This document shows, piece by piece, positions 4,604 to 20,581 of a stretch of 64,000 nucleotides of DNA (within the stretch, counting starts at the first letter, position 1; each line of letters begins with the position of its first letter). The DNA comes from Burkholderiales bacterium (GTDB lineage Bacteria > Pseudomonadota > Gammaproteobacteria > Burkholderiales > UBA6910): NCBI GenBank assembly GCA_026005015.1, contig BPKG01000005.1, positions 1 through 64,000 of the forward strand. The letters are read 5' to 3'. The position numbers and the translations under genes are program-made. The notes under the pieces were generated by a model. That model did no database searches. It saw only the letters and a program-made list of their open reading frames with translations, and was not told where the DNA came from.

Positions 4604-5579
4604 ATGGATGCCATTGTCACGAAACGCCCGAAGCTGCTGGACCGGATGCGCGAAGCGCTGCGGGTGCGGCGCTACAGCTTGCGCACCGAGGAGGCCTACG
4701 TGGACTGGGCGCGCCGCTTCATACTGTTCCACGGCAAGCGCCATCCCCGCGAGATGGGGGCGGGGGAGGTGACGCGTTTTTGACGCATCTGGCGACGGTG
4801 CGAGAGGTTTCGCCTTCCACCCAAAACCAGGCCAAGGCGGCATTGCTGTTCCTTTACAAGCAGGTGCTGGGCGTTGAGCTGCCGTGGCTGGACGAGGTGG
4901 TGCAGGCCAAAGTGAAAAAGCGCCTGCCGGTGGTGCTGACGCCGCGCGAGGTGCGCGCGTTATTGAACGAGCTGAACGGCACGATGTGGCTCATCGTCAG
5001 CCTGCTCTACGGCACGGGCATGCGCTTGCTGGAGGGGCTGCGGCTGCGGGTAAAGGACGTGGAGTTCGAGCGGCGCGAGATCGTGGTGCGGGAGGCCAAG
5101 GGCGGCAAGGATCGGGTGACAATGCTGCCGGAGAATCTGATCGCGCCCCTGCAAGACCAACTGGCGCGGGCCAAGAAGCTGCACGATGAGGACCTGGCCG
5201 CCGGCTACGGCGAGGTGTGGCTGCCGGACGCGCTGGCGGTCAAGTATCCCAAGGCCGGCAAAGCTGGGGTTGGCAGTACGTGTTTCCTTCGACGGTGCGC
5301 TCGACGGATCCGCGGTCGGGTGCGGTACGGCGCCACCACATCCTGCCGGAGACGGTGCAGAGGGCGGTCAAGCTGGCGGCTTCGCGCGCCGGGATAACCA
5401 AGCCGTGCACGCCGCACGTGCTGCGCCATTCCTTCGCCACCCACCTGTTGCAGAGCGGCTACGACATCCGCACGGTGCAGGAGTTGCTCGGCCACCAGGA
5501 CGTGAGCACGACGATGATTTACACGCACGTGCTCAACCGCGGCGGCCGCGGTGTGGTGAGCCCCTTGGATCAGCTTTAA
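4604..5579 (+). pseudogene. intI: Integron integrase (tyrosine recombinase), two frameshifts
   Basis: Joined across two frames the gene gives a full-length IntI of about 325 residues. The first part (ATG 4604) ends near 4780; the second runs 4780-5265, with TGMRLLE holding the first catalytic Arg; the third runs 5265-5579, with [19 protein letters not shown] and the nucleophile in TMIYTHVLN. The integron-specific extra domain is present ([20 protein letters not shown]), which separates it from XerC/D. Each junction is repaired by adding one base. It is divergent from the cassettes, as in known integrons. Either the integrase is dead or the bases were lost in sequencing. Confidence 0.88.
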
Positions 5580-5860
5580 AGTCCTGACGCTTGATCTTTT
5601 CCTGGTATCCGGCAGTTTGTCGGAATTCACCGCGGCCTCGTGGAGTCGAATGGCTCTTCCAGCGTCGGTGAATCCGCGCCGCTTGCCACAGCGGCCGGCT
5701 TCATGGAAAAAGGACAAAGTTCGAGAACTTATTGACTACCCCTTTGCCCACAGGCCCGAGGACCATTAACCCGTCTCGATCGAGCCCGCCCAAAGCATAA
5801 GAAAAAAATGATAAAAACGGTAAGGCAAGCTTATACTTCTTGCGCTATCATATGTTGCGT

Positions 5861-5886
5861 CGCTCTTTCATATCGTGAAAAGAGCG
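5861..5886. promoter_or_regulatory. Near-perfect inverted repeat, possible operator
   Basis: CGCTCTTTCA and TGAAAAGAGCG face each other across TATCG, an 11-base dyad with one bulged base. It lies in the roughly 690-base stretch between intI and the aldehyde dehydrogenase. The AT-rich tract just before it (5795-5840) could hold a promoter. A second, shorter hairpin (GGCCGGAG-ATC-CTCCGGCC) is at 6128-6146. No regulator can be assigned. Confidence 0.4.
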
Positions 5887-5926
5887 GCGGAAGCCCGCGC
5901 CACGAGCGCGGACGAGGAGACCCGAG

Positions 5927-6115
5927 ATGAGCGCAGTGTTGAAGAGCATCGAAGACCGGCTCCCCCGGCCGGTCGAAGAGGAGGCGTCCTTCGGCGACGC
6001 CTCCGGGGAGTACCGGGCGTGCGGCTGCTGGCGGGAAGAGCGCCATCCGCGCACCTTTCCGAGCCGGCTGCAGGGCGATCCCCGCGCCATCGAAAATCCC
6101 TTCGGCGATCTTTGA
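5927..6115 (+). CDS. Small ORF of unknown function
   Basis: A 62-codon ORF lies between the inverted repeat at 5861-5886 and the aldehyde dehydrogenase. GAGGAGA lies about ten bases before its ATG. The product is charged, has a Cys-Gly-Cys at mid-length, no membrane segment and no family I recognise. It could be a leader for the downstream gene or chance; GC-rich DNA makes such ORFs common. Confidence 0.3.
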   Translation: MSAVLKSIEDRLPRPVEEEASFGDASGEYRACGCWREERHPRTFPSRLQGDPRAIENPFGDL

Positions 6116-6268
6116 ACGGCACCGGGCGGCCGGAGATCCTCCGGCCGGCTGAGCGATAGAGGTTTCGCCCCAGCCAGGGGGCGCCTAAAATTCCCTTTTA
6201 TTCGAAGAGCGCCCGTTGCGCCTTGGCGCGGGCGGGTGTCGTCTGTGCATCGTCTTTGAGGAACCTCC

Positions 6269-7783
6269 ATGTCCAGCGTCGAACCTCTGCGCACCCCCGC
6301 GAGCCCCGCCAAGGCCGCCGCCCTGACGGAAGCCCGCCGCCTCGCCGGCCAGGTCCTGGTGGACGGTCGGCTTCAGCCTCCGCCCAGCGGCCGCACCTTT
6401 CCGGTGGAAAATCCTGGCGACGAAACCGTCATCGCGGAAGCCGCCCGGTGCGACGCCCGGGACGTGGCCTGGGCGGTGGAGGTCGCCCATCGGGCCTACC
6501 CCGCCTGGTCGCACCTCCCGGCCCGGGAGCGGGGCGACCTGCTGCGCCGGGCCGCCGACCGGCTGGAGCAGGAGGCGGAACCCCTCGCCCGGCTCCTGGC
6601 GCTGGAGACCGGCAATGCCCTCGCCACCCAGTCTCGGCCCGAGGTGGCCGGCGCCATCGAGCTGCTACGGTTCTTCGCCGGCCTGTGGTCCGAGCTCAAG
6701 GGACGCACGATCCCTTGGGACTCGGACACCTTGGCCTACGTCTCCCGGGAGCCGCTGGGGGTGGTGGGGGCCATCATCCCGTGGAACTCGCCCCTCGCCC
6801 TCCTGTGCGTGAAGCTGGGTCCGGCCGTGGTGGCGGGCAACACCCTGGTGGTGAAGAGCGCCGAGCAAGCGCCCCTGACCGTGACCCGCACGGTGGAGAT
6901 CCTGAACGAAGTCTTGCCTGCCGGCGTGGTGAATGCCATCTCCGGGTTCGGGGAAGAGGCGGGCCGACCCCTAGCCGAGCATCCCCTGGTGCGCAAGGTA
7001 AGCTTCACCGGCTCCGTTTCGGTGGGTCGGCAGATCCTGCGCTACGCCGCTGAAAAGCTTTGCCCGGTTACCCTAGAGCTCGGGGGAAAGAGCCCGAACA
7101 TCGTCATGGACGACGCCGACCTAGACAAAGCAGTGCCAGGAATCATCGCCGGCATGCGCTTCACCCGCCAGGGCCAGTCCTGTTCCGCCGGCACCCGCAT
7201 CTACCTGCACGAGCGGGTCTACGACCAGGTCGTCGCCCGCACCGTGAAGGAACTGGAGAAGCTCAAGATCGGCGATCCCTTGGACGAGGCCACCCAGATG
7301 GGGGCCATCATCTCCCGCGAGCAGTTCGAGCGGGTCAAGTCCTACGTGGACATGGCCCGCGCTACCCCGGGCGCTCGCATCCTGTGCGGCGGCGGCCCCG
7401 CACCCGGGCTAGACAAGGGCTACTTCTACACGCCCACTCTGATCGAGGGAGTTCCCCACACCTCTCCGGTGTGCACCGACGAGATCTTCGGTCCCGTGGC
7501 GCTGCTGTACCGGTTTAGCGACTTCGACGAAGCCCTCACCCTCGCCAACGATACCCAGTACGGCCTCGCTGGGGCGCTGTGGACCCGCGATCTCGCCAAG
7601 GCCCTCGCCTTCGCGGAAAAGCTCCAGGCGGGTTTTGTGCAAGTGAACCAGTACGCGGGGCCGAGGGCGGGGCTGCCCTACGGCGGCTACAAGATGAGCG
7701 GGCTGGGGCGGGAGTATTCCCTAGAATCCATGCTGGAGCACTTCACCGCCACCAAGACGGTGATCGTGAATTACGGAAAGTAA
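6269..7783 (+). CDS. NAD(P)-dependent aldehyde dehydrogenase
   Basis: A complete 504-residue ALDH-superfamily enzyme oxidising an aldehyde to its acid in the cytoplasm. The Rossmann segment contains PWNSPL near 171-176, the general-base Glu270 lies in LELGGKSPN, and the nucleophile Cys305 in QGQSCSAGTR. The C-terminal part has EIFGPV and the GGYKMSGLGRE oligomerisation tail. ATG at 6269 follows GAGGAACC. It lies about 1 kb from the minus-strand mutase/sulfonate operon and might process an aldehyde from that pathway, but shared control is not shown. Substrate cannot be read from sequence. Confidence 0.92.
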   Translation: MSSVEPLRTPASPAKAAALTEARRLAGQVLVDGRLQPPPSGRTFPVENPGDETVIAEAARCDARDVAWAVEVAHRAYPAWSHLPARERGDLLRRAADRLEQEAEPLARLLALETGNALATQSRPEVAGAIELLRFFAGLWSELKGRTIPWDSDTLAYVSREPLGVVGAIIPWNSPLALLCVKLGPAVVAGNTLVVKSAEQAPLTVTRTVEILNEVLPAGVVNAISGFGEEAGRPLAEHPLVRKVSFTGSVSVGRQILRYAAEKLCPVTLELGGKSPNIVMDDADLDKAVPGIIAGMRFTRQGQSCSAGTRIYLHERVYDQVVARTVKELEKLKIGDPLDEATQMGAIISREQFERVKSYVDMARATPGARILCGGGPAPGLDKGYFYTPTLIEGVPHTSPVCTDEIFGPVALLYRFSDFDEALTLANDTQYGLAGALWTRDLAKALAFAEKLQAGFVQVNQYAGPRAGLPYGGYKMSGLGREYSLESMLEHFTATKTVIVNYGK

Positions 7784-7832
7784 CCGCGGTGCGTCCGTTT
7801 TCAGCGGACCGCCAGCTTGCAGGAGGCCAGCC

Positions 7833-8213
7833 ATGCCGCCCGGCAAACCGCCGGACAAGGCACGCCTCGACCGCATCGTGGCCGAGGCCCGGCGCGCCCA
7901 GGAGGAGCGGGAGAAAGGGTATCGGGCGCGGGCCCTCAAGCTCTTTCCCTGGATCTGCGCCCGGTGCGGGCGGGAATTCACCCGCGCGACGCTCCATCAG
8001 CTCACCGTGCACCACCGGGACGGCAACCACGACAACAATCCGCCCGACGGCAGCAACTGGGAGCTCCTGTGCCTCTACTGCCACGAGAACGAGCACGCGC
8101 GGGTCGTGGACGAGTCGGTGCGCGGCCGGCCCGCGCCCGGCACAGAGCCCGAATCCCGGGCAACCTACAAGCCGTTCGCCGACCTGGAGGCGCTGCTCAG
8201 ACGCAAGAAGTAA
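7833..8213 (+). CDS. HNH nuclease-family protein (YajD-like)
   Basis: The 126-residue protein has two Cys pairs (CARCG near 47 and CLYCH near 90) flanking the HNH core (VHHRDGNHDNN), which binds one structural zinc and one catalytic metal. A charged N-terminal helix precedes the domain. It resembles the small stand-alone YajD family, whose role is unclear. AGGAGG precedes the ATG. It lies 49 bases behind the aldehyde dehydrogenase and may be co-transcribed with it, although the two look functionally unrelated. Confidence 0.85.
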   Translation: MPPGKPPDKARLDRIVAEARRAQEEREKGYRARALKLFPWICARCGREFTRATLHQLTVHHRDGNHDNNPPDGSNWELLCLYCHENEHARVVDESVRGRPAPGTEPESRATYKPFADLEALLRRKK

Positions 8214-8274
8214 CCCCCTGCGGAACATCCCGCCGCACTCCCCGGCCTAAGGAAGCATCGGGCATTACCCTCCC

Positions 8275-8691
8275 ATGACGGTCGGTCAACGCGTCGTATT
8301 GCTTCTGCTGGCCTTTCCGTTTTCGGCCTCGCTCGCCGTGGGCGTGTACTGGGCGCTCGACCTGCCGGTGAGGTATGGGCTTCCCATCGCCGCCTTGATC
8401 TTCATCGCCGTCGAGCTTCTGCTCCAGCGTCTTGCCTCCCGAATTCGACCCCAGGTCGGCCCCGAGTCGCTTCCCGGCCAGGAGGTGGAAGTGCTCTCCG
8501 ACTTCCAGCAGGATGAGCACGGGTTCTACGCCGGGCACGTGCGGCTCAGGGGGGAACGATGGAAGGCACGCGCCGCAGGCCCCCAGGAACACGTGCCTCG
8601 CCCGGGCGCTAAAGCGCGCATCGAGCGGGTGGAAGGGGTCACGCTTTGGGTTTCGCCGAGCGCTCATCCGATAGATAAGCCCGGGCGATAA
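8275..8691 (+). CDS. NfeD-like membrane protein with OB-fold tail
   Basis: The 138-residue protein has two hydrophobic segments (about 8-28 and 36-52) followed by a soluble beta-rich domain starting LPGQEVEVLSDF and ending VEGVTLWV. This is the layout of short NfeD C-terminal proteins, where the OB fold usually works with a membrane protease or stomatin-type partner. No stomatin/SPFH gene is adjacent, so the partner is unknown. ATG at 8275 is preceded by weak ribosome-site sequence. Confidence 0.7.
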   Translation: MTVGQRVVLLLLAFPFSASLAVGVYWALDLPVRYGLPIAALIFIAVELLLQRLASRIRPQVGPESLPGQEVEVLSDFQQDEHGFYAGHVRLRGERWKARAAGPQEHVPRPGAKARIERVEGVTLWVSPSAHPIDKPGR

Positions 8692-8716
8692 AAAAAAGCC
8701 GGGCACAAGGCCCGGC
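8690..8716 (-). terminator. Rho-independent terminator of the mutase operon
   Basis: On the minus strand, GCCGGGC-CTTGT-GCCCGGC is followed by eight T residues. It lies 34 bases past the stop of the mutase epsilon gene and closes the minus-strand operon. Confidence 0.85.
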
Positions 8717-8749
8717 GCAAGGGAGGAAGCAATGGAAAACCCGATGGGT

Positions 8750-10246
8750 TCAGTCCCGCGCCCAAGCGTCGCTCATGAGCCGTGCCAGGGGCTCGGAGAT
8801 TTCATAGACGCTCGCCACCGCCAGCTCCGGGCCGAAGGGCACGCCATCCTTCTCCGCGCGCCGCTTGAGCCGCTCCTCGTGGATCTCCAGCACGTCCTTC
8901 GGGAAGGGCATGAGGCCAGGATCCAGGATGCGCAAGTACCCCTCGGCGTCCCGAGCCGGCATCACCCGGCTCTTGCACCAGCGGTTGGGGGACCAGGGGA
9001 TATCCATGACGCCGGCTTCGAAGGCGCGCACCGCCCCCACCGCCGCGTCCCCGTCCCCCATCTCCAGGGTCTTGTCGATGATGGGCCGCACTTCCCGCTT
9101 GATCAGCTCCACTTCGAACTGGAACTCGGGTAGGGGATCGAGACGGATCCGGCGCGCCAGGTAAATCCCCATGCGCGTCATGCGCAACCCTTCCGCGTTC
9201 GCCTGGGGCGTGGGGATGCCGAACGCCTCGTGGGTGGTCTTGGTGGTGACCGACACCGCCCCGGCCACGGCGGCCAGCGTTCCGCCGTAGACCACCAGGG
9301 CTGCCGACTGGGCCTCGTCGTGGGGCCAGGCGCCCATCCAGTGAAGAAGGGTGACTGGGGTAAATACATCCGTGTAGCCCGCCTTGCGCAGGTATTCCTG
9401 GACGAGCTCCTGGCAAGCCCGCACCGCCGCCGCGTCCTGGACGAGGTGCAGCGTCTGCCCCATCTCCAGGCCGTAATTCTTGACCCCCTGGGCGGCGGCC
9501 AGTAGCGCGTCCAGCACGCAGGTCATGATGGCGACGCAAGGCGGGATGTTGGTGCCGGTGAGGAAACCCGGCTGGCGCCGGTGCAGCTCGACGCCGTGCT
9601 CCTGGTACAGCGCCGCCAGCCGGTCTAGGTACTGGTAGTTGCGGATACCCTCCTCGATGGAGAGTTCCTTGATGTAGGAAGTGGTGTAGGCGATCCCAGA
9701 ACCCAGGTAGCCCGAATAGCCCGAGGCGAAACCGATCTCCCCCGTGAGCTTGGGCATGGCGGTGCCGGTCAGCATGATGGCGGGCTTGTCGATGGCCTCG
9801 ATCAGCTTCTTGCTCACCTCCACCCCGTAGTTCACGATGGGGTAGCCGTTCAGCATGGAGCGCCCCTCCCGCTCCGACTCCTCGATCCCCTTCTGCGCCA
9901 GCACCCACTGCTCGTTGCGGGTGTAGCTGTCGGTGGTGGTGGGCACGATGTCGGCTAGTCCTTCCTTGTCCAGGATTTGCATCAGTTCCAGTTGCAGCCG
10001 GAAAGTGCCGAAGCCACCCCGGGGTTGGGTAAGGCAGCGGCCCTCCTGCACCGCCCGCCGCATGACGTAGGCGAGCCGCTTGTGCTTCGGCAGCCGCTGG
10101 TGCAGCTCCACCGCCCGCTCGAGCACCACCTCCTTCCCCGTGGGCCAGCGGGCCAGGTTCTCCCGGCGCATGGCGTCGAAGGCGTCATCGGGGATCCGTT
10201 CCTGGGAGAGGGGTAGCCGAGTCTCAGGCGCCGACGGTGCGTTCAT
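8750..10246 (-). CDS. glmE: Glutamate mutase-like epsilon subunit (B12-dependent), altered active site
   Basis: The 498-residue protein is the catalytic TIM-barrel subunit of the methylaspartate (glutamate) mutase family. It aligns without gaps over its first 200 residues with the Clostridium cochlearium enzyme as I recall it, at a constant offset of ten. R66 and R100 of the arginine claw are kept as R76 (QPRGG) and R110 (SYTR), and Y177/Y181 as Y187/Y191. R149 is Leu159 and the amino-group ligand E171 is Leu181. Family membership is sure; use of glutamate is doubtful. It overlaps glmL by 23 bases and is the last gene of the operon with glmS, glmL, the enolase-superfamily gene and probably xsc. 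Confidence 0.9.
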   Translation of the reverse strand: MNAPSAPETRLPLSQERIPDDAFDAMRRENLARWPTGKEVVLERAVELHQRLPKHKRLAYVMRRAVQEGRCLTQPRGGFGTFRLQLELMQILDKEGLADIVPTTTDSYTRNEQWVLAQKGIEESEREGRSMLNGYPIVNYGVEVSKKLIEAIDKPAIMLTGTAMPKLTGEIGFASGYSGYLGSGIAYTTSYIKELSIEEGIRNYQYLDRLAALYQEHGVELHRRQPGFLTGTNIPPCVAIMTCVLDALLAAAQGVKNYGLEMGQTLHLVQDAAAVRACQELVQEYLRKAGYTDVFTPVTLLHWMGAWPHDEAQSAALVVYGGTLAAVAGAVSVTTKTTHEAFGIPTPQANAEGLRMTRMGIYLARRIRLDPLPEFQFEVELIKREVRPIIDKTLEMGDGDAAVGAVRAFEAGVMDIPWSPNRWCKSRVMPARDAEGYLRILDPGLMPFPKDVLEIHEERLKRRAEKDGVPFGPELAVASVYEISEPLARLMSDAWARD

Positions 10247-11647
10247 GACGGGACTCCTTGTGCACGGGAACGAGGCAGTTGCAGCCCAAGCGCAGCGCGG
10301 CTGCCGGCTCCACCTGGGCGAGCAAGCCGCAGGCGTACAGGGAATAATCGCGGTCGAGCATAAGCCGCGGAGCCCTCGGCCGCAGAGACCAGGGCTCAGC
10401 AGGATCGAACAGGGCCGTCTCCAGGATCGCTCCAGGATCGGCGCCGTGGACCAGCACGCCGCCGGTGCCGATCACCGTGGCCACTTCCCGCAGGTCCTTG
10501 CCGTGCTGCACCTGGACCGGCCCCTGGACCGTGTAGACGGTCTCCACCGTTCCGGCATGGCGCTGGACCGCCAGACGCACGGCGGCGCGGCCGAGGGCCA
10601 GATCGAGGGCCCGCTCTTCGTCGCTTTCTGGCAGCCGCTCCACCTCGCGCGAGAGCTCATCCACCATTTGCCTCACCCGGTCGGCGGGCAGTCCCGCATC
10701 CCGGGCCAAGGCCTCCAGACCGACGATCTCGGCCACGGCGCCGATGTTGTGGCGCATGCCCAGATCCCCTTCCACGGTGCGCTTGACGCGCGGCTCCGGC
10801 AGGCCGTGGGGTACGATCCCCGGCTGGGTCGGCTGCCCGTCCGCCACCGAGTGCACGTCCGTCGTCGCCCCGCCCGGGTCCACCACCAGCAGGGGCCCCA
10901 GCCCCGGCTCCCCCTCCCAGCCGTCGGCCAGCAGCCGCGCCGCCTTCCATGACCGCCTCGGGCGTGGGCATCAGCACCTGGTCGAACAGGGCCTGGGCCC
11001 GGTCGATGCCCTTCGCGTGCACGATGCGCTCGATGAACACCCGGCGGATGGCGGCGCGGGCGGGCTCGATGTTGAGCACGTTGAACTCCGGCATCACGTT
11101 CTCGGCGACGATCACCGTCTTGCCGCTCAAGGAGCCGTTGGGCCTCTTCGGCCGCCGCCCGGTTGCCCGCGTAGACGATGGGACACGCGAGGGCGGCGGT
11201 TGCCGCGAGCTGCTGCGGCGTTGTGCAGGATCACCTCGCTGTTTCCCCCGTCGGTGCCACCCGCGAGCAGCAGGATGTCGGGGGAGAGCGCCTCGATCTT
11301 TCTGCACGTCGCCGCGGGTCAGGCGATAGGCGAAGGCGCCCACTAGCTTCGCCCCCGCCCCCAGGGCCGCCCGCCGGGCCGCCTCCGCCGTGAGCTCCCG
11401 CACCAGCCCCACCGTGACCATGCGCAGGCCGCCCAGCCGCGCTGGAAGAGGCGAGCCGGTAGGTGAACCTGGGAAGCGGACCGATGTGGGCTTCCAGGTC
11501 CTCGAGCGCCGTCACCATGCCCACCGTGATGTCCGTGGCGACGGTGGACGGCCCCTGGCCGGCGCCGATGATGCGGGCATGGTCCACGTCCACCGCCCGC
11601 AGCTTGGTGTAGGTGCTGCCGAAATCGATGAGGAGCGCCGTCTTCAT
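10224..11647 (-). CDS. glmL: MutL/GlmL-like ASKHA protein of the mutase system (several frameshifts)
   Basis: Pieces in three frames add up to one protein of about 470 residues. The start [15 protein letters not shown] is the phosphate-1 loop of the actin-like ATPase fold. Then come [15 protein letters not shown], a piece around [26 protein letters not shown], one with [11 protein letters not shown], one with [19 protein letters not shown], and the tail from [12 protein letters not shown] to 10224. GlmL is thought to reactivate or assemble the B12 mutase. I count at least five one-base shifts, near 11445, 11315, 11217, 11140 and 10930. The conserved segments look otherwise intact, so base-calling errors are as likely as decay. 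Position between glmS and glmE is as in known mutase operons. Confidence 0.8.
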
Positions 11648-12119
11648 GCGATCAAGCGAGACTTTCCCCTCTGGCGCATCACGCCTCTGTGCTTCTGCCT
11701 GTCCCGCGCCTCGAAAGTCCCGCGCCAGGGCCTCGATCACCTCGTCGGTGCGCGTGCCGGGGGGGAACGCCCGGTCGAAGCCCATGGCGAGGAAGCGTTT
11801 CTCCACGTCTTCCCAGCGCTGCTTTCCCACCACCAGGTTCCCGCCCACGTAGAGCAGGATGTTCTCCAGGCCCGCTTCGATGCACTTGTCGCGAAAGCCC
11901 CGGCAGTCCAGCTCTCCCTGGCCGTAGAGGGAAGAGACCAGGATCCCATCAGCGTTCGTCTCCACCGCCGCCTTGATGAAGTCCTCGGCCGGGGTCAGCG
12001 CCCCCAAGGCCACCACCTTGTAGCCGGCCTTCTCCAGCGCCATGGACAAAATGCGGTTGCCCACGATATGGGTGTCCGACCCTATGACCCCGGTGACCAG
12101 CGTTTTCTCGTCCCATCAT
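11644..12119 (-). CDS. glmS: Glutamate mutase-like sigma (cobalamin-binding) subunit
   Basis: The small B12-binding subunit has the DxHxxG motif (SDTHIVG, encoded near 12062-12079), [11 protein letters not shown] and [10 protein letters not shown], which hold the cobalamin tail. From GTG 12064 downstream the frame is clean. The natural N-terminus needs one G removed from the GGG at 12112-12114, giving [13 protein letters not shown] from ATG 12117-12119. At the other end the frame runs straight into the GlmL start without a stop, although an ATGA overlap at 11644-11647 would be the expected junction. A second compensating indel is likely. Pairs with glmE to form the mutase. Confidence 0.85.
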
Positions 12120-12153: not shown

Positions 12154-13248
12154 TCAAAGCGCGGCCGAGGCTTTCGCGGAAAATCCTTCCCGCGCCACCG
12201 TGTAGCGTGCCAGCGCGTCGCGGTCGAGGGAGGGCCGATCGCCCGGCTCCAGCACGATGGCCCCGCGCTCGAACCGGAGGGGCCGCTCCAGCAGGCGCGA
12301 CACGGGCTTCAAAAACCCGTTCATCTCGCCCGCGTTCCCGATCGTTTCCCGGGCGACGCAAGCCTCCATCCAGCAGCCGATCTCGCACGCCACGCCGTTG
12401 CCCAGGACCGGTTCCATGCCCAAAGCGCGGATGCGCTCGATGCCGGCCTTGAGGCGATCGAGGCTTCCCATTTTCATGAGCTTCAGCTTGATGAAGCTGG
12501 CGCATCGGAGCCGTGCGGCACGATCGATGTCTTCGAGCCCATAGATGGATTCGTCCAGCATCATGGGCACCGGCGAGATTTCGGCCACCGCCTTGGCCGC
12601 GGTCCAGTCCCCCGCCGCGCAGGGTTGCTCGAAGAGCTCGACGCCGGCCGGATCCAGCGTGCGCAAGAAGCGGCGCGCCTCGTCGACGTTGTAGCCCTGG
12701 TTGGCGTCGATGCGAAGCCGGGCCCGCCCGCGGTTGAACCGCTGGACGAGGGCCACCTTACGCGCGTCCCGCTCCGGATCGAAGCCCACCTTGATCTTGA
12801 GGGTGCCGTGACCCTCGCTGAGGAGCTTCTCGATCTCTGACTCCAGCTCGTGAGCTTGCGTGCCGTTCACGAGTCCCAGCAGAGGCACTGTCGTCGTTCG
12901 CTCCACCGACAAACACGGATGGCCCTCCAGCATATCCACAGCCGTGGCGAGGGCCGTGGTGGTGAAAGGCGCCGCGCCGACCGCCGCCTCGGCCACGCGC
13001 TTCGCGTCCATGGGGGAGCGGCCCACCATTCGGAGCGCCAGCTCCCGGGCGAGTGCCCAACTCCCGTCGATGGTCTCTTCGGTGTAGCCTGTGAGGAGCG
13101 TCGCCTCTCCCAGCCCCTCGCGGCCGTCCGAGTCCACCGCTTCCACCAGGATGGTGTCGAAGGCCCTGACCGGCCCGAACGCGAGCTTGTACGGGGTGGT
13201 CAGGGGCACCTTGAGCCGATAGAGCGTGACATGCTCGATGACGCTCAT
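12154..13248 (-). CDS. Enolase-superfamily enzyme, muconate-lactonizing (MR/MLE) subgroup
   Basis: The 364-residue protein has the N-terminal capping domain and a TIM barrel with KxK (K151-I-K153), Mg ligands D181 (DANQ), E207 (FEQP) and D232 (LDES), and the opposite-face Lys256 in KLKLMKMG. This set defines the MLE subgroup (cycloisomerases, o-succinylbenzoate synthases, dipeptide epimerases). It is not the methylaspartate ammonia-lyase that usually accompanies glutamate mutase. ATG 13246-13248 has an AGGAG site six bases upstream. It stands between xsc and glmS on the same strand, so it probably works on the substrate or product of the mutase. Exact reaction unknown. Confidence 0.85.
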   Translation of the reverse strand: MSVIEHVTLYRLKVPLTTPYKLAFGPVRAFDTILVEAVDSDGREGLGEATLLTGYTEETIDGSWALARELALRMVGRSPMDAKRVAEAAVGAAPFTTTALATAVDMLEGHPCLSVERTTTVPLLGLVNGTQAHELESEIEKLLSEGHGTLKIKVGFDPERDARKVALVQRFNRGRARLRIDANQGYNVDEARRFLRTLDPAGVELFEQPCAAGDWTAAKAVAEISPVPMMLDESIYGLEDIDRAARLRCASFIKLKLMKMGSLDRLKAGIERIRALGMEPVLGNGVACEIGCWMEACVARETIGNAGEMNGFLKPVSRLLERPLRFERGAIVLEPGDRPSLDRDALARYTVAREGFSAKASAAL

Positions 13249-13299: not shown

Positions 13300-13369
13300 C
13301 CGCTGGGCTTTGGGCGGGTCGATCCCGCTTCTCGTCCTTGCGCGAGGGCGCGCGGGCGCCCTCGGGGCC

Positions 13370-15178
13370 TCACACGTAGTCCTTGTACTTTTCCAGCAGC
13401 CGTTTGGGCTTGGAGAGGGCGTCGCGGCGGAAGGGGTCGCCGAGCTCGCGCGAGACCAGGATTTCGAGGATGGTGGTTTTGCCCTCGGCCTGCGCCTGGC
13501 AGGCGCTGGAGAGCGCGGGGCCCACCTCCGAGAGCTGGTCGATCGTGACCCCCTCGGCCCCCATGGTGCGGGCGATGGCGGCAAAGCTCGGGTTTTCCAG
13601 ATCCGTGCCCACGAAGCGGCGGCTGTAGAAGTCCACCTGGTTTTTCTTCTCCGCCCCCCACTGGCGGTTGTTGAACACCACCGCGGTCACGGGGATTTTC
13701 TCGCGCACGCAGGTCAAAATCTCCCCCATGCTCATCGCCCAGGCCCCGTCGCCCACGTAGGCGACGGCCGGCCGCTCGGGGGCGGCCACCTTCGCCCCGA
13801 TCACGGTAGGAAAGGCGTAGCCGCAGTTGCCGAAGCTCATGGCGGCAAGCATCGAGCGCGGCCGCTCGAAGCGCAGGTAACTATTGGCCACCGAGCAGAT
13901 GTTGCCGATGTCGGTGGAGACCATGGCGTCTTGGGGCAGGGCGCGCTCGAGCTCCTTGAGGACCTGGCGCGGGTGCAGCAGATGGGGCTCGGCGCGGATC
14001 ACCTCCTCGGAATAGGGGTCGCGCTCGTGGGTCCACTGGGCAAGCTCCTGCTCCCAGGCTTCCTTCTCCGCCCGGATCGTCTTGAGCCGCGCCTCGCGGT
14101 TTTGCGCGCCGGCGAGCCGCTTGCCTTGAAGCCGCGCAAGGAGCGCCTCGGCCGCGGCCCGGGCATCGCCCGCAATGCCCACCGAAATCTTCTTCACCAG
14201 CCCGAGCATCCGGGGATCGGCGTCCACTTGGATCACTTTCGCGCTCTTCGGCCAGTAGTCAAGCCCGTGCTGGGGCAGCGTCCCAAAGGGGCCAAGGCGC
14301 GTGCCCAGCGCCAGCACCACATCGGCCTGCGCCAAAAGCTTCATGCCCGCCTTCGACCCCTGGTAGCCCAGGGGCCCGGCCCACAAGGGGTGGGACGCGG
14401 GGAAGGCGTCGTTGTGCAGATAGGAGGTCACCACCGGCGCCGAGAGGTGCTCGGCCAGCGCGACGCACGCCTCCACCCCCTCGGCCAGAATGACCCCGCC
14501 CCCGGCGATGATCACAGGAAACTGGGCGCTGGCCAAAAGCTCGGCCGCCTCGCCCAGGCTTCTCTCGCCCCCCGCCCCCCGCTCGATCACAATGGGCGCG
14601 GGAATCTCAAAGTCGTATTCGCCGTAGAAAAAGTCCCGGGGGATGTTGAGCTGGGCCGGACCCAGCTCCAGCATCGCCCGATCAAAAGCCCGGCCCGTGA
14701 GCTCCGCCATCCGGCGGGGGTTGTTCACGTGGGCCTGGAACTTGGTGATCTTGGAGAAAATGGGCAGCTGCTCCGTCTCCTGAAACCCCCCCAGCCCCAT
14801 GGTCATGCTGCCCGACTCGGGGGTGATCACCACCACCGGGGAATGCGCCCAGTAGGCCGCCGCTACCGCCGTCACAAAATTGGTAACTCCAGGGCCGTTT
14901 TGCGCCATGCACACCCCGTGGCGCCCGGAGATGCGGGCATAGCCGTCGGCCATGTGCCCCGCGCCCTGCTCGTGCACCACCGGAATGTAGCGAATGCCCG
15001 CCGCAGGAAAAAGATCCAGCGCATCCATCAGCGCCGAACCCACGATCCCAAAGACCTCCTTCACCCCGTGCGCCACCAAGGTCTCCACGAACGCTTCGCT
15101 CGGGGTCATGCGCACAGGACCCACGCCCACCAGCGCGCTGCCCCGGGGCTCTTCCATCAGTTTGGGATTGGTTGCCAT
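13370..15178 (-). CDS. xsc: Sulfoacetaldehyde acetyltransferase
   Basis: This 602-residue thiamine-diphosphate enzyme converts sulfoacetaldehyde and phosphate to acetyl phosphate and sulfite. The N-terminal domain has MTPSEAFVETLV and HEQGAGHMADGYAR with the ThDP-activating Glu. The middle has GPLGYQGSKAGMKLL, the C-terminal domain has the ThDP/Mg motif GDGAWAMS with NNRQWGAEKKNQ, and the end LGDPFRRDALSKP...YKDYV is diagnostic of Xsc rather than acetolactate synthase. ATG 15176-15178 follows GAGGACGAGG; the extra 18 residues before MTPSEA are unusual but plausible. Genes for dehydrogenase, uptake, regulation and sulfite export lie next door. A phosphate acetyltransferase gene is not in the window. 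Confidence 0.93.
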   Translation of the reverse strand: MATNPKLMEEPRGSALVGVGPVRMTPSEAFVETLVAHGVKEVFGIVGSALMDALDLFPAAGIRYIPVVHEQGAGHMADGYARISGRHGVCMAQNGPGVTNFVTAVAAAYWAHSPVVVITPESGSMTMGLGGFQETEQLPIFSKITKFQAHVNNPRRMAELTGRAFDRAMLELGPAQLNIPRDFFYGEYDFEIPAPIVIERGAGGERSLGEAAELLASAQFPVIIAGGGVILAEGVEACVALAEHLSAPVVTSYLHNDAFPASHPLWAGPLGYQGSKAGMKLLAQADVVLALGTRLGPFGTLPQHGLDYWPKSAKVIQVDADPRMLGLVKKISVGIAGDARAAAEALLARLQGKRLAGAQNREARLKTIRAEKEAWEQELAQWTHERDPYSEEVIRAEPHLLHPRQVLKELERALPQDAMVSTDIGNICSVANSYLRFERPRSMLAAMSFGNCGYAFPTVIGAKVAAPERPAVAYVGDGAWAMSMGEILTCVREKIPVTAVVFNNRQWGAEKKNQVDFYSRRFVGTDLENPSFAAIARTMGAEGVTIDQLSEVGPALSSACQAQAEGKTTILEILVSRELGDPFRRDALSKPKRLLEKYKDYV

Positions 15179-15523
15179 GATCCTCGTCCTCTCGGTGAAT
15201 GAACGGCGGCGGAAGCCGCGGTGATCGAATCGAAAACCGATTGTTTCACAATAGGGGGCGAGATGCAAGCGCTTACATTACCGTGCCTGCCCGCTTCCCC
15301 GGTCGCTGGGCGATCCAGCCTTGCCCATGAAAGCATAGAACCTGCCTCGAGATTGTTTCCCCAGCGGGGCGAAAGGCGCGTCTCGGCGTCCCGTGGGAAT
15401 CCCGCGCATTTCGCTGCGCTCAACCGCTCCTACGGTCAGTCACGAATGGGCGCGGGCTTTCGCGGACGGAGGCGGGATCGTTTTCTCATTCGTGGACATC
15501 CGTGTTCATCCGTGGCGAACGAT
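15179..15523. other. Intergenic region upstream of xsc
   Basis: About 345 bases without a gene. The 80 bases next to xsc are AT-richer and should hold its promoter; CGAAAA and TTTCAC around 15230-15247 form a weak dyad. From 15405 to 15520 the sequence contains repeat-like tracts, among them ATCCGTGTTCATCCGTGG at 15498-15515, a short motif I have seen in intergenic DNA of many proteobacteria. No RNA gene is evident. Confidence 0.4.
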
Positions 15524-17132
15524 CTATCCCGCGGCGGCGTCCTCCAGGATCATGTCGGCGGCCTTCTCCGCGATCATGACCACGGGCGCGTGGGTGTTGC
15601 CGGAGACGAGGGTGGGCATGATGGAGCAGTCCACCACCCGCAAGCCCGCGAGCCCCCGCACCCGCAACCGCTCGTCCACCACCGCCATGGTATCCGAGCC
15701 CATCTTGCAGGTGCCGGAGGGATGGAAAATCGTGGCGCCGTATTCCCGGGCGAATTCGAGCAGGTCATCGTCCGAGGTGGCGGCGGGCCCGGGCCGGTAT
15801 TCCTCGGCGATGTAGGGCTTGAGCGCCCCGGTCCCCGCCAGCCGGCGCGCGAATTTGATCGCCGCCACGGCGCAGCGCCGATCCACTTCCGCCGAGAGGT
15901 AGTTGGGCTGCATGGAAGGGGGCTCCATCGGGTCCGTGGAGCGGACGCGCACGTAGCCCCGCGACTCGGGCCGCAGCTGGCACACGGAGAAAGTGCAGCC
16001 CGGCCAGGGATGGGGCTCGCCCCCGGCCATGTCGGCGGAAAGGGTGGCGAAGTGGAACTGGATATCGGGGGTCCTGGACTCCGGCAGCACCCGGGTGAAG
16101 AGCCCGCCCTGGTTGATGCCGATGGCGAGCGGCCCCTTGCGGAACAGGAGCCACTTGAGCCCGATCTTGATCCGGCCCCACAGGGTGCGCAGCTCGTCGT
16201 TGGTGGTGATGGGTTTCGTGACCTTGTAGATCAAGCGCAACTGCAGATGGTCCTGCAGGTTCTCGCCCACGCCGGGCAGGTCCTTGACCACTGGGATGCC
16301 GAAGGACTGGAGGAGCGAGGCCGGCCCGACCCCGGAGAGCTGCAGGAGCTGGGGGCTCTGGAGTGCGCCGGCGGAGAGCAGGACCTCCCGCGCCGCCCGG
16401 GCCTCCCGGAGCTGGCCGCCCTGGCGGTACTGCACGCCCACCGCCCGCGCACCCTCGAACAGGATCCGGGTGACGTGGGCGTCGGTCTCGACGTACAGGT
16501 TGGCCCGCTTACGCGCCGGGCGCAGATAGCCCACGGCGGCGCTGCAGCGCCAGCCGTTGCGGGTGAAGAGCTGGTAGTAGCCCACCCCCTCCTGGATGGG
16601 CCCGTTGAAGTCGTCGTTGCGGGGAACTCCCCAGCTCGTTGGCGCCCCGGATGATGGCCTCCATCAGCTCGTGGCGCTCCCGGATGTCGGAGCACCATTG
16701 GGGGCCCTGGTCGCCGTGGTATTCGCTCGCCCCGCGGGTGTTGTGCTCGGAGCGGATGAAGTAGGGCAGCACGTCTTTCCAGGCCCAGCCCCGGTTCCCC
16801 AGCGCCGCCCAGCCGTCGTAGTCCTCAGGTTGCCCGCGCACGTAGATCAGCCCGTTAATGGAGCTGGATCCCCCCAGGCAGCGCCCGCGCGGCCAATAGA
16901 TGCGCCGGTTGTGCATGTGAGGATCGGGATCGGTGTAGAAGCCCCAGTTGTAGGCGGGGTTGAACATGGTCTTGCCGTACCCGATGGGGATGTGGATCCA
17001 GAGGTAATTGTCCTTCGGACCCGATTCCAGCAGCAGCACGCGGTAGCGCCCGTTCGCCGTCAGACGGTTGGCGAGCACGCAGCCGGCGGAGCCTGCGCCG
17101 ACGATGATGTAGTCGAAAGTGGGCTGGGTCAT
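15524..17132 (-). CDS. GMC-family flavin dehydrogenase, candidate isethionate dehydrogenase (one frameshift)
   Basis: A choline-dehydrogenase-like FAD enzyme of about 535 residues. The N-terminal FAD motif is DYIIVGAGSAGCVLANRL, the GMC signatures are RCLGGSSSINGLIYVRG and GALQSPQLLQLSGVGP, and the C-terminal active site shows GTCKMG and VSGNTHAPV. The frame shifts near 16630; removing one A from CTGGGGAGTT restores it, so the enzyme may be intact in the cell. A GMC dehydrogenase (IseJ) oxidises isethionate to sulfoacetaldehyde in known loci, and here it lies upstream of xsc on the same strand and divergent from the TRAP genes. Other alcohols cannot be excluded. Confidence 0.85.
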
Positions 17133-17287: not shown

Positions 17288-17530
17288 TATAACGGAAGAT
17301 AGTCAATATAATGGGACATATTTTCCCGTTATTGTCTATTTTTCCCTTGCGCCCCGTCAAAACATCGTCTACGATGAAAGCGCTTTCCTTTCTCTGTGAA
17401 ACCCAGGATGAAGGGGAAGCTACCGCTAGGGACGACCGCCCGACGGCCGCAGCCGAACGCGAGCCGCAGCGGTCGTGCCGTTCAAATCGCCGGCCGTCCC
17501 GAGGCCGGTCCAACGTGGAAGGAGGAGCAA

Positions 17531-18652
17531 ATGAGCCGCAGTTTCCTATGGAAATGGGTGGCCACCGCAGCCGCGGCGTTCCTTGCGCTCGGCGGCTCGG
17601 TGGCCCAGGCCCAGCAATACAAAATGCGCATCCAGACGGCGGTGCCCACGTCCAGCATCTACTTCGAGCTGCTGAAGAAGTTCGGCGACCGGGTGGAGAA
17701 GATGTCCGGGGGGCGGTTGAAGACCGAAGTCCTGCCCGACGGGGCGGTGGTTCCGGCCTTCGAGATCCTCGACGCCGTGGACAAGGGCATCGTGGAAGCG
17801 GGCTACGCCTGGACCCATTACTGGTCCGGCAAACACCCGGCGGCGGGAATCTTCTCCAACCCGATGGCTGGCTCCGGTGTGGGGATGGATCAGCTTTCCC
17901 ACATCGCCTGGCTCTTTGAGGGCGGTGGCTACGACCTTTACAAGAAGTTCTACGCGGATGTGCTCAAGGTCAACGTGGAGCCCCTGCTCGTGCAGCCCAT
18001 GGGGCCCGATCCCCTCGGCTGGTTCAAAAACCCGATCAAGAACCTGGAAGACTTCAAGAAGCTCAAGTACCGCTCGCCGCCCGGAATCACCGGAGAGATC
18101 TTCAAGGAAATGGGCGTCTCGGCGGTGGCCATGCCCGGGGGTGAAATCGTCCCGGCGGCCCAGCGGGGAGTGATCGACGCCGCCGAATGGATCGGCCCAG
18201 CGGACGACATCAACCTGGGTTTGCACACGGTGTGGAAGCACTACTATCTCCAGGGCCTGCACCAATCCACCGACGTGGGGGAAATCCTGATCAACAAGAA
18301 GTTCTGGGACAAGCTGCCCAAGGAGATCCAGGAAATCATCCGCGGCGCGGCCATGGCCTCCATGACCGAGACCTACACCTACAACGTGTACCGCAACGCG
18401 CTGGCCATCAAGACCATGCGCGAAAAGCACGGGGTCCAGGTGCACGACACGCCCAAGGACATCTACGCCGCGTTCGTGAAAGCCACCAACACGGTGCTGG
18501 ACCGCTACGCGGCCAAGGACCCGTTCTTCAAGGAAGTGCTGGACTCCCAGCGGAAGTTCGCCCAGGTCGTGGTTCCGTACTGGACCAAGATCCTGGACCT
18601 GTATTCCGGCCTGGGCAACGCGGCGCTGGAAACCGGCGCGGTCAAGCCGTAA
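17531..18652 (+). CDS. TRAP transporter periplasmic solute receptor (DctP family)
   Basis: The 373-residue exported receptor of a sodium-driven TRAP transporter starts at ATG 17531 behind GGAGGAG. The signal peptide (MSRSFLWKWVATAAAAFLALGG) ends near AQAQQ. The mature protein opens YKMRIQTAVPTSS, and carries the DctP features GGRLKTEVLPDGAVVP and KNLEDFKKLKYRSPPG, the latter before the ligand-binding Arg. The small and large membrane subunits follow directly. The genes surrounding it suggest a sulfonate such as isethionate, but carboxylates bind to the same fold, so the ligand is inferred from context. Confidence 0.92.
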   Translation: MSRSFLWKWVATAAAAFLALGGSVAQAQQYKMRIQTAVPTSSIYFELLKKFGDRVEKMSGGRLKTEVLPDGAVVPAFEILDAVDKGIVEAGYAWTHYWSGKHPAAGIFSNPMAGSGVGMDQLSHIAWLFEGGGYDLYKKFYADVLKVNVEPLLVQPMGPDPLGWFKNPIKNLEDFKKLKYRSPPGITGEIFKEMGVSAVAMPGGEIVPAAQRGVIDAAEWIGPADDINLGLHTVWKHYYLQGLHQSTDVGEILINKKFWDKLPKEIQEIIRGAAMASMTETYTYNVYRNALAIKTMREKHGVQVHDTPKDIYAAFVKATNTVLDRYAAKDPFFKEVLDSQRKFAQVVVPYWTKILDLYSGLGNAALETGAVKP

Positions 18653-18739
18653 CCGGTATCACATCGCTCGATCCCGTGGGGGCGCGGAGCGATCCGCGCC
18701 CCCTTACGGCACTGTAACGGCCAAATCGAGGCAAGGGTC

Positions 18740-19267
18740 ATGGCAAGTCCGCCAATCGCCCTACGGCGCGCGATCAATCTCCTCGACGGCATTAGTCTCT
18801 GGTCAGGGAAGATCGTGGCCTGGCTTATCTTCCCCATGGTGGGAAGCCTCGTCTACGAGGTGATCGCCCGCTATGCATTCAACGCTCCCACCGTCTGGGC
18901 CTACGACATGACATTCATGCTGTACGGGAGCTTTTTCATGCTGGGTTCGGCCTACACCCTGCTGCGCAAAAGTCACATCCGCACCGATATGTTCTACATG
19001 AACTGGCCGGCGCGGCGCCAGGGCTGGGTAGACACGGTGTGCTACGTGCTGTTTTTCTTTCCCGGCATGATCGCTTTCCTGGTGGTGAGCTGGGATTTCT
19101 TCTGGATTTCGTGGGAGCGGGGCGAGCGCATCGTCACCAGCCCCTGGATGCCCATCGTCTATCCTTTCAAGGCGACGATCCCCATCGCCACCTTATTGCT
19201 CCTGCTCCAGGGACTCTCTGAGCTGCTAAAGAGCGTCTACGCCGCCCTCAAGGGAGAATGGCTGTGA
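18740..19267 (+). CDS. TRAP transporter small membrane subunit (DctQ family)
   Basis: The 175-residue protein has four hydrophobic segments (about 27-47, 57-77, 98-120, 140-162) and the DctQ-type stretch YEVIARYAFNAPTVWAYDMTFMLYG. It joins the solute receptor to the large permease. The stop overlaps the DctM start by ten bases, which supports coupled translation. The 87-base gap after DctP contains no obvious terminator. Confidence 0.9.
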   Translation: MASPPIALRRAINLLDGISLWSGKIVAWLIFPMVGSLVYEVIARYAFNAPTVWAYDMTFMLYGSFFMLGSAYTLLRKSHIRTDMFYMNWPARRQGWVDTVCYVLFFFPGMIAFLVVSWDFFWISWERGERIVTSPWMPIVYPFKATIPIATLLLLLQGLSELLKSVYAALKGEWL

Positions 19268-20581
19268 GCCCAGAAGTGATCGGATTTCTGGCGCTCGCCG
19301 CCCTGTTCGCCGCCATCTTCATCGGCTTTCCCATCGCCTTCACCCTGATCGCTGTCGCCCTGGCCTTCGGTTACTGGGCCCTGGGCGACGTGGTGCTGTA
19401 CTCTGATGACGCTCCAGGTCTTTTCCGTGATGCGGGACCCCACCCTGGCGGCGGTGCCGTTTTTCCTGTTCATGGGATTCCTGCTGGAGCAGTCGGGGCT
19501 CATGGAGCGCCTGTTCCGTGGCATCGAGCATCTGCTGGCCGACGTGCGCGGATCGCTGTACCTGGCGGTGCTGGTAACGGCCACCATCTTCGCCGCCGCC
19601 ACCGGCATCGTGGGCTCGTCGGTCACGCTCCTCGGCGTGATGGCGGCGCCGGCCATGATGAAGAGCGGCTACGACGTGAGGATGTCGGCCGGGGCGATCA
19701 CCGCCGGCGGAACCCTGGGCATTCTCATTCCGCCGAGCGTGATGCTCATCGTCATGGGGCCCGTGGTCGGCGTTCCCACCACCTATCTCTTCGCCGCTGC
19801 CGTATTTCCCGGGCTGATGCTTGCCGGGCTGTACATCGGCTACACCCTGATCCGGAGCTTCATCAATCCGCGTCTTGGCCCTCCGCTGCCGATAGAAGAA
19901 CGAGCTGAGAATTTCGGCATCGTGCTCAAGGAGCTGATGGTCGGGGTGGTGCCCGTGGTGGTGATCATCCTGGCGACGCTGGGGGTGATCCTGGCCGGCA
20001 TCGCGACTCCCACCGACGCGGGAGCCATGGGAGCGTTCGCGGTGCTCCTGCTCACCCTGCTCTACCGGCAGATGAGCTGGGAGAGGCTGAAGAAGGCGGT
20101 CTACGCGACGCTCGAGGTCTCATGCATGATCCTGTTGCTGGTGGCCGCCTCCAACTTCTTCGGCGCGGTGTTCTCCCGGCTCGGCAGCGCCACCTGGCTC
20201 GCCGAGGGGCTGCTCACCCTGCAGATGACGCCGATTGTGATGCTGGTGCTGATTCTGGCCATCATCTTCATCCTCGGCTGGCCCCTGGAGTGGGTGCCCA
20301 TCGTGCTGATCGTGGTGCCCATCTTCCTGCCGTTGGTGAAGCAGCTCGGCATCGATCTGGTCTGGTTCTCCACCCTGGTGGCGGTGTGCCTCCAGACTGC
20401 CTGGCTCTCGCCGCCGGTGGCGCTCTCGGCCTACTTCCTGAAGGGCGTGGTGCCGGAATGGGGGCTCAAGGACATCTACCTGGGCATGCTCCAGTTCATG
20501 GGGCTGCAGTTGATCGGCCTGGGAGTCCTGCTGGCGTTCCCGGCGCTGGCCACCTGGCTTCCCCAGTATCTGTTCCAATGA
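19258..20581 (+). CDS. TRAP transporter large permease (DctM family), one frameshift
   Basis: The main transport subunit is about 440 residues with a dozen hydrophobic segments. The first 50 residues (start MAVSPEVIGFLALAAL) are in one frame. From about 19402 the protein continues in another as LMTLQVFSVMRDPTLAAVPFFLFMG, a well-conserved DctM stretch. Removing one base of TACTCTG restores a single frame. The rest is intact, with GGTLGILIPPSVMLI and PTDAGAMGAF typical of the family. With DctP and DctQ it makes a complete transporter. Confidence 0.88.

Follow-up and report, generated by a model that had tools for sequence, protein, structure and literature searches.

The gene at positions 12154–13248 on the minus strand of the window (the whole stretch of 64,000 nucleotides analysed, from a genome of the order Burkholderiales) was confirmed to encode an intact protein that belongs to the MLE subgroup within the enolase superfamily, and not a methylaspartate ammonia-lyase (MAL). 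Together with the mutase genes beside it, this gene probably marks a distinct and recurrent subfamily of B12 enzymes of the glutamate-mutase type, which is accompanied by an MLE-type partner, occurs in carriers of sulfonate genes and is probably misnamed. The explanation preferred here, held with somewhat less than even confidence, is that the MLE-type protein acts as partner to a re-tooled AdoCbl mutase, the mutase moving a non-amino and probably sulfonated group (X) and the MLE-type enzyme racemising the branched acid.

The reading frame of the MLE gene was translated into 364 amino acids with no internal stops, starting at an ATG at 13248 with AGGAGA just 5′ of it, while a longer frame started by TTG would reach 476 amino acids and overlap the end of xsc. 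The protein presented the motifs KxK (K151/K153), DANQG (D181), FEQP (E207), LDES (D232) and KLKLMK (K254/K256), and the residues K151, K153, D181, E207, D232 and K256 were invariant in an alignment of 28 sequences. Thus, the KxK pair, the Asp-Glu-Asp metal ligands and the opposite-face lysine of the MLE subgroup were all found, K256 being aligned with the lysine of the IKLMK motif in 1jpm, which we take to be catalytic. Moreover, three motifs particular to the relatives of this protein were conserved (GEATxLTGYTxET, GNGVAxxxGCWMEA and NAGEMNGF). In the Pfam search, the MR_MLE_C and MR_MLE_N domains scored 103.4 and 23.8 bits, respectively, and no MAAL domain was found. None of the NCBIfam equivalog cut-offs was passed; the nearest curated models, for muconate cycloisomerase and for o-succinylbenzoate synthase, all fell short of their cut-offs, and the muconate/chloromuconate cycloisomerase model TIGR02534 gave 99.8 bits against a cut-off of 335.

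The separation from MAL was consistent across methods. The MAL model TIGR01502, which gave 604 and 539 bits with two genuine methylaspartate ammonia-lyases, was not among the models matching the protein at E ≤ 0.001, so that neither the MAAL N/C domains nor TIGR01502 place it in that family, and the comparison of profiles found a weak similarity over 119 columns with a probability of 17, the MAL side comprising four sequences. The possibility of a true MAL was therefore ruled out by the family models and the profile comparison. Furthermore, the AlphaFold model of the protein (mean pLDDT of 94.7) resembled solved MLE-subgroup structures, with the top 15 chains showing Z-scores of 39–41 over 340–355 residues. 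The closest folds were the N-succinyl Arg/Lys racemase 2p88 (Z of 40.9, 353 residues aligned, 2.3 Å) and the chloromuconate cycloisomerase 1nu5 (Z of 40.8), which were 22–23% identical to the protein, within the 19–25% of the ten top-ranked chains; MAL was absent from the list of structural matches, an absence that was not counted as evidence. The initial annotation had described a protein with KxK and LDES signatures of the MLE subgroup standing in the place of MAL and apart from it, and had suggested a different chemistry. Residues, Pfam domains and fold model agreed with the first of these statements; the separation was borne out by the family models and the profiles, with the nearest folds being those of MLE enzymes, and a chemistry different from that of MAL was supported, the reaction that would replace the loss of ammonia being taken up below.

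The MLE gene was placed between xsc upstream and glmS-glmL-glmE downstream, the minus-strand order being GMC oxidoreductase, xsc, MLE, glmS, glmL and glmE. The sulfoacetaldehyde acetyltransferase Xsc (13370–15223, minus strand) scored 961 bits with TIGR03457 against a cut-off of 676. The GlmS-type B12-binding subunit (11700–12112, minus strand, approximate ends, start frame-disturbed in the assembly) scored 167 bits with NF002612 against 110, and its B12-binding DxHxxG loop could be read as G-S-D-T-H-I-V-G at about 12059–12082. The GlmL-type reactivase (10224–11656, minus strand, approximate ends) was identified by family models and broken over three frames, while the GlmE-type epsilon subunit of the mutase (8750–10246, minus strand), identified by models and alignment, had 498 amino acids. 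An aldehyde dehydrogenase gene (6269–7783, plus strand; 541 bits with Aldedh, reaching none of the cut-offs of the 25 NCBIfam models listed) followed, which adjoined glmE in the same genus too. On the other side, a GMC (choline-dehydrogenase-like) oxidoreductase in two frames was found upstream of xsc (15524–17129, minus strand), followed on the plus strand by a TRAP transporter (17396–20581; solute receptor identified by Pfam as DctP, two membrane subunits assigned by position), an IclR-family regulator (20624–21496; NCBIfam relatives BhcR, PcaR, KdgR and IclR, none above cut-off) and a TauE/SafE-family exporter identified by Pfam (21519–22292).

The same order of xsc (cut by the contig end), MLE, glmS, glmL and glmE was kept in a genome of the same genus (G415, locus L113), where glmL was one intact stop-to-stop frame of 476 amino acids and the contig continued past glmE to TctC-TctB-TctA-SauS-SauT. 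In the genome of the window (G000), the TctCBA-SauS-SauT genes were located at 5271–11417 of another contig (C4), whose first 532 bases correspond to window bases 534–1 reversed with 99.3% identity. Given this inverted overlap, the two contigs may abut; TctCBA-SauS-SauT would then probably lie downstream of glmE at a distance of some 13 kb, matching the gene order of the same-genus genome. Genes split over frames were observed at glmS/glmL (10224–12112), the GMC oxidoreductase (15524–17129), the large TRAP subunit (19258–20581) and the TctC gene (C4, 5271–6156); since the contig ends show 99.25% identity in their overlap, with a 2-base difference in length, these splits are likely assembly errors, decay being possible. 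As further observations, a second copy of xsc was present in the same genome (window 13367–15178 and about 168113–169924 of contig C2), the two copies being 99.8% identical over 1812 nt, barely more than the length of the gene, and pieces of tyrosine recombinase-like frames were read by eye between glmE and the contig end (4597–5579), where a mobile element has likely been inserted.

The substrate pocket of the mutase was compared with that of Clostridium cochlearium GlmE (1cb7), to which the window GlmE was aligned over 471 residues with zero gaps (391 bits), so that residues could be transferred between them, with window numbers equal to those of 1cb7 plus 10. In glutamate mutase, the migrating glycyl group is described as held by R66, R149 and E171 and the acrylate as held by R100 and Y177, with E171 binding the glycyl amine and R66, R100 and R149 forming an arginine claw (PMC10947579). 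In the window sequence and 46 relatives, positions 149 and 171 were Leu and position 214 was Arg, instead of R149, E171 and E214, in 47 of 47 sequences, whereas R149 and E214 were kept in 11 of 11 comparison sequences and E171 in 10 of 11. The complete claw with E171 was therefore found in none of the 47. These sequences came from hits of at least 330 amino acids, with partial GlmE genes left out. A total of twenty columns separated the 47 from the comparison set, comprising R149L, E171L, P180S, E214R, F/Y216P and 15 more, while R66, R100, Y177, Y181, M294, K326 and E330 were kept in every row covering the position, one of the 47 rows being without the stretch that holds R66 and R100, both kept in the remaining 46. 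Moreover, the 47 changed sequences formed a single, fully supported group (100/100) on a long stem in the GlmE tree, some of these rows being near-copies and some comparison rows being long branches. As judged from these residues, the loss of R149 and E171 together with the change of E214 to Arg indicates that glutamate would not be the substrate of the changed GlmES, in line with the earlier suggestion of a changed mutase substrate.

The family models did not reveal this change, as the curated model of the glutamate-mutase large subunit names the changed GlmE a methylaspartate mutase though it has lost two of the glutamate-holding residues. In particular, the window GlmE passed TIGR01503 (447.6 vs. 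390.1 bits) and GlmS passed TIGR01501 (158 vs. 135.8 bits), and a distant member of the changed group also passed the methylaspartate-mutase model (452.5 vs. 390.1 bits). These scores would fit an ordinary route, in which 3-methylaspartate is still the product of the mutase and the MLE-type enzyme has become an ammonia-lyase by convergence, within an assimilation cycle for the acetyl-CoA released through Xsc, whose product is acetyl phosphate. No MAL above cut-off was found in the genome of the window, as this route would also allow, and a CaiB-type CoA-transferase like the one beside MAL in Gemmobacter and Ensifer was found within 10 kb of the MLE gene in 5 of 80 loci. However, Arg149 and Glu171 were lost in all 47 sequences, and the CoA-ester lyase standing beside MAL in Gemmobacter and Ensifer was absent among the 63 neighbour families examined, which makes the ordinary route very unlikely. 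A clean exclusion between MLE and MAL was also ruled out, as MAL was above its cut-off in 5 of the 50 genome rows searched for it (four distinct genomes if G421 and G928, with identical hits, are the same; these 50 differ from the 50 used below for SauS and Xsc), and a further genome (G505) had a MAL-like match in two pieces, below the cut-off.

A scan of 84,980 species genomes for relatives of the MLE-type protein yielded 80 loci of other genomes at 49–64% identity, the 80 kept of 126 found; such a recurrence indicates that the arrangement in the window is not due to chance. Adding three further loci, a total of 83 were examined, in which, with the thresholds used, the most frequent neighbours were GlmS (51) and GlmE matches (46), followed by QOR-like reductases (36), SauS (16), SdhA-like proteins (11), Xsc and TauD (8 each) and fumarase-alpha-like proteins (7). 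Of the 51 loci with GlmS, 28 had this gene behind MLE at a distance of no more than 400 nt, another 20 had it at a greater distance on the MLE strand, and 3 had it on the other strand. For the 38 genomes without a full GlmE in the locus, GlmE was found elsewhere in 14, the matches in G940 and G945 being partial, and none was found elsewhere in the other 24; in three of these 24 (L020, L025 and L027) GlmS lay near a contig end, so that fragmentation would explain the absence of GlmE only in part. The hosts were, according to the record labels, mostly alpha-, beta- and gammaproteobacterial MAGs, and other MAGs bore the labels Nitrospira, Nitrospinae or Acidobacteria. Among the records not marked as MAGs were Hyphomicrobium sp. 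CS1BSMeth3, with the mutase present, and the isolates Variovorax sp. WDL1 and Hansschlegelia zhihuaiae, which had MLE and SauS without the mutase, indicating that the MLE-type enzyme can act without it. Three loci labelled as the Bordetella parapertussis group (L017, L038 and L090) clustered with uncultured betaproteobacteria in the trees, and that label looks doubtful.

The linkage of MLE to GlmSLE recurred across the MLE tree, which argues against a chance neighbourhood between the mutase and an MLE-type epimerase of dipeptides or N-acylamino acids. Such an epimerase would agree with the presence of L-Ala-D/L-Glu epimerase among the closest solved sequences (87 bits) and with an amidase gene near MLE in L031, L034 and L043, but these are only 3 of 80 loci, and the Peptidase_U32-type genes of five other loci lie kilobases off, beside SCP2, and resemble ubiquinone genes. 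This origin of the neighbourhood is accordingly most improbable. The five loci in question (L050, L067, L072, L079 and L088) carried a pair of Peptidase_U32-type genes together with SCP2 a few kb off MLE, which we take to resemble ubiU, ubiV and ubiT of oxygen-independent ubiquinone synthesis.

A total of 72 neighbour families appeared in at least three loci, of which 63 were examined and nine left unannotated; three of the 63 had zero Pfam matches. A saccharopine-dehydrogenase-like family (c21) and the dapA, bamC and MBL genes were rejected as parts of the pathway, as they recur in one betaproteobacterial chromosomal setting. The idea of an entirely specific neighbourhood was likewise rejected, given the CaiB-type CoA-transferase in 5 loci and the amidase in 3, both of them rare. 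Upstream of the MLE cluster in another set of loci (L028, L029, L030 and L035), an IclR gene preceded a gene for a PTA-type phosphotransacetylase and a set of molybdopterin oxidoreductase genes; the PTA would suit acetyl phosphate coming from Xsc. TauD-type dioxygenase genes were found in 7 of the 80 loci (L014, L016, L019, L037, L038, L040 and L090), a number too low for an obligate partner, which was rejected. The genomes of six of these seven lacked GlmE, GlmE being present in 1 of 7 genomes with TauD compared to 13 of 31 others (38 genomes, Fisher P-value of 0.23), and the TauD label needed 4 changes on the MLE tree. A dioxygenase of this type could free sulfite directly from an alpha-sulfo acid, and its replacing the mutase is only a lead, with weak statistics.

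The MLE-mutase module was strongly associated with sulfonate genes. SauS was above its cut-off in 42 of 50 MLE genomes compared to 17 of 200 background genomes (Fisher P-value of 8e−26), and Xsc in 41 of 50 compared to 23 of 200, where the 50 were chosen by hand (42 with GlmE in the locus and 8 others, from several classes), the backgrounds came from the window's own order only with MLE genomes included, and, for Xsc, the same-genus G415 was scored as having no match, its copy being cut by the contig end. Within a 200-genome draw of the order, apparently a single draw for mutase and SauS, the latter was found in 5 of 5 genomes with the changed mutase (G000, G415, G421, G465 and G505) compared to 12 of 195 others (P-value of 2e−6). 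In the genome of the window, SauS scored 792 bits against a cut-off of 600 and adjoined a SauT-like protein 55% identical to an AMP-ligase representative, so that Xsc, SauS and a putative sulfoacetate-CoA ligase, the genes expected for sulfoacetate, were all present. Moreover, the loci L044 and L047 together presented xsc, SauS, SauC, SauD, Sdh-like, MLE, QOR, TctCBA and GlmSLE genes in one direction, a run broken only by a GntR gene on the opposite strand. The MLE-mutase module is thus strongly tied to sulfonate catabolism by association, which it would feed, the order of the reactions being proposed from the genes. This sulfonate context of the MLE gene was not part of the initial annotation.

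Sulfoacetate clusters have been published in which a tripartite tricarboxylate transporter accompanies SauS and either SauT or SauCD (PMC12625764), and SauCD/SauS sulfoacetate genes are described elsewhere (PMC12890257). In the open-access literature of PubMed Central, no paper joining methylaspartate mutase with sulfoacetaldehyde acetyltransferase was found, none of the titles and abstracts among the matches listed described a mutase-MLE sulfonate system, and methylaspartate mutase and sulfonate were mentioned together in one open-access paper, on Halobacterium salinarum genomes as far as its listed text goes.

The near-constancy of these sulfoacetate genes would be explained directly if X were a sulfoacetyl group. 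The mutase would then interconvert 4-oxo-5-sulfopentanoate and 2-methyl-3-oxo-4-sulfobutanoate, the latter being cleaved to sulfoacetate or sulfoacetyl-CoA and a C3 acid, with SauT or SauCD, SauS and Xsc acting next in the pathway. The leucines at 149 and 171 could pack such a larger and less polar group, and acyl migration is the chemistry by which methylmalonyl-CoA mutase works. Against this, a hydrolase or thiolase cleaving the C–C bond was not seen in the neighbour families examined (63 of the 72 present in at least three loci), and we know of no natural substrate for the migration of a sulfoacetyl group; this alternative is regarded as unlikely.

According to the preferred explanation, a re-tooled mutase with an MLE-type racemase as its partner, the mutase would interconvert X-CH2-CH2-COO− and CH3-CH(X)-COO−, a pair expected from the conservation of the acrylate-binding half of the pocket (Arg100 and Tyr177). 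An amine in X would fit poorly with the loss of Glu171, and Arg66 together with Arg214 suggests an anionic group, so that X would be amine-free and probably still anionic. Enolase superfamily chemistry begins by taking the proton next to a metal-bound carboxylate, and the MLE-type enzyme, with D181, E207 and D232 as the likely Mg2+ ligands and K153 and K256 in an arrangement like that of two-base racemases, would enolise the carboxylate of the branched acid and then racemise or epimerise it for a stereospecific mutase. Since the branched acid has an alpha proton and the lysines of both faces are conserved, racemisation or epimerisation was taken as the first choice and beta-elimination as the second. 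Points against the preferred explanation are the presence of MLE without the mutase in the two isolates, the MAL found in 5 of 50 rows, and the rare CaiB and amidase neighbours.

The second choice would make the MLE-type enzyme a lyase that takes the alpha proton of CH3-CH(X)-COO− and eliminates a group borne by X (e.g. hydroxyl), the QOR-like reductase then acting on the alkene. The gene occupies the neighbourhood of MAL, itself a lyase, the MLE subgroup includes beta-eliminating cycloisomerases and a dehydratase, and of the 36 loci having the QOR-like gene, 24 had it no farther than 400 nt from MLE. On the other hand, a pure lyase would not need the lysine kept on each face, and QOR was present in those 36 of 83 loci only. 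The best folds of the predicted model comprise cycloisomerases as well as racemases, which would fit either choice; taken together, a lyase appears possible though rather doubtful.

Within the preferred explanation of mutase and racemase, a tentative proposal, to be held with caution, is that X is a sulfonate (or a sulfonate-bearing fragment), sulfonate itself being the simplest candidate in such a cluster, and that the MLE-type enzyme is a racemase, the mutase linking 2-sulfopropionate and 3-sulfopropionate, which would be the sulfo-analogues of methylmalonate and succinate. 3-Sulfopropionate is reported as a microbial product (PMC11489063), the same paper citing a thesis on 3-sulfopropionate via sulfoacrylate and sulfolactate in Roseovarius nubinhibens. 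Genes for SdhABC-like proteins and a two-subunit fumarase-like protein were found near MLE or GlmE in L049, L050, L069, L070, L073, L074, L086 and L124, and sulfopropionate would account for such neighbours in some relatives, as they may convert 3-sulfopropionate to 3-sulfoacrylate and this to 3-sulfolactate. Moreover, the QOR-like protein, related to 2-haloacrylate reductase (234 bits) and slightly closer to quinone reductases, would suit a sulfoacrylate. In the SdhA-like proteins of L074 and L044 (two proteins, compared by eye), FrdA Thr244 was replaced by Glu and the flavin-linking His by Cys, the Glu not appearing to be an obvious sulfonate-binding change. With sulfopropionate as substrate, the near-constancy of SauS and SauT/SauCD would be explained indirectly, as belonging to a shared guild.

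If the proposal of a changed subfamily is true, a recurrent B12 enzyme family of environmental sulfonate degraders carries the wrong name, hidden behind the methylaspartate-mutase model of the databases, and a hitherto unknown step in organosulfur cycling could be tested with few proteins and a handful of C3–C5 sulfonates. Furthermore, if the migration of a sulfonate is true, a radical rearrangement of C–S bonds would take part in sulfonate catabolism.

Finally, the module was compared with known systems. With glutamate mutase GlmES of C. cochlearium (1cb7/1i9c) and GlmL, it shares the near-full-length alignment, the B12 loop of GlmS, the S-L-E gene order and the residues R66, R100, Y177, Y181, K326 and E330, but it differs in R149L, E171L and E214R, in the separate tree group and in the MLE-type gene in the place of MAL. 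With the sulfoacetate pathway, the genes for SauS, SauT or SauCD, Xsc and a TTT transporter are common, such genes being present in the genome of the window, and SauS and Xsc in most of the relatives searched as well; the published clusters differ in that the excerpts of PMC12625764 and PMC12890257 mention no mutase or enolase-superfamily enzyme. Compared with muconate cycloisomerase, N-succinyl Arg/Lys racemase and L-Ala-D/L-Glu epimerase, the MLE-type protein has the same catalytic residues and fold, with low identity (the 19–25% of the top-ranked chains) and conserved motifs of its own. In control operons of Peptoclostridium, Gemmobacter, Ensifer and Prevotella, MAL directly followed glmE, and a Roseibium region had glmE without MAL, beside peptide-synthesis genes. 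The MLE gene shares the neighbourhood of MAL in these operons, and MAL belongs to the same superfamily; the differences of the MLE-type protein are its subgroup, the absence of MAAL and TIGR01502 matches, and the presence of KxK and K256. Lastly, methylmalonyl-CoA mutase is served by methylmalonyl-CoA epimerase, an enzyme from a different superfamily, and the proposal for the window is alike in that a branched acid would be racemised and then rearranged by a B12 enzyme to the linear one, with the difference that the window module implies no CoA ester.
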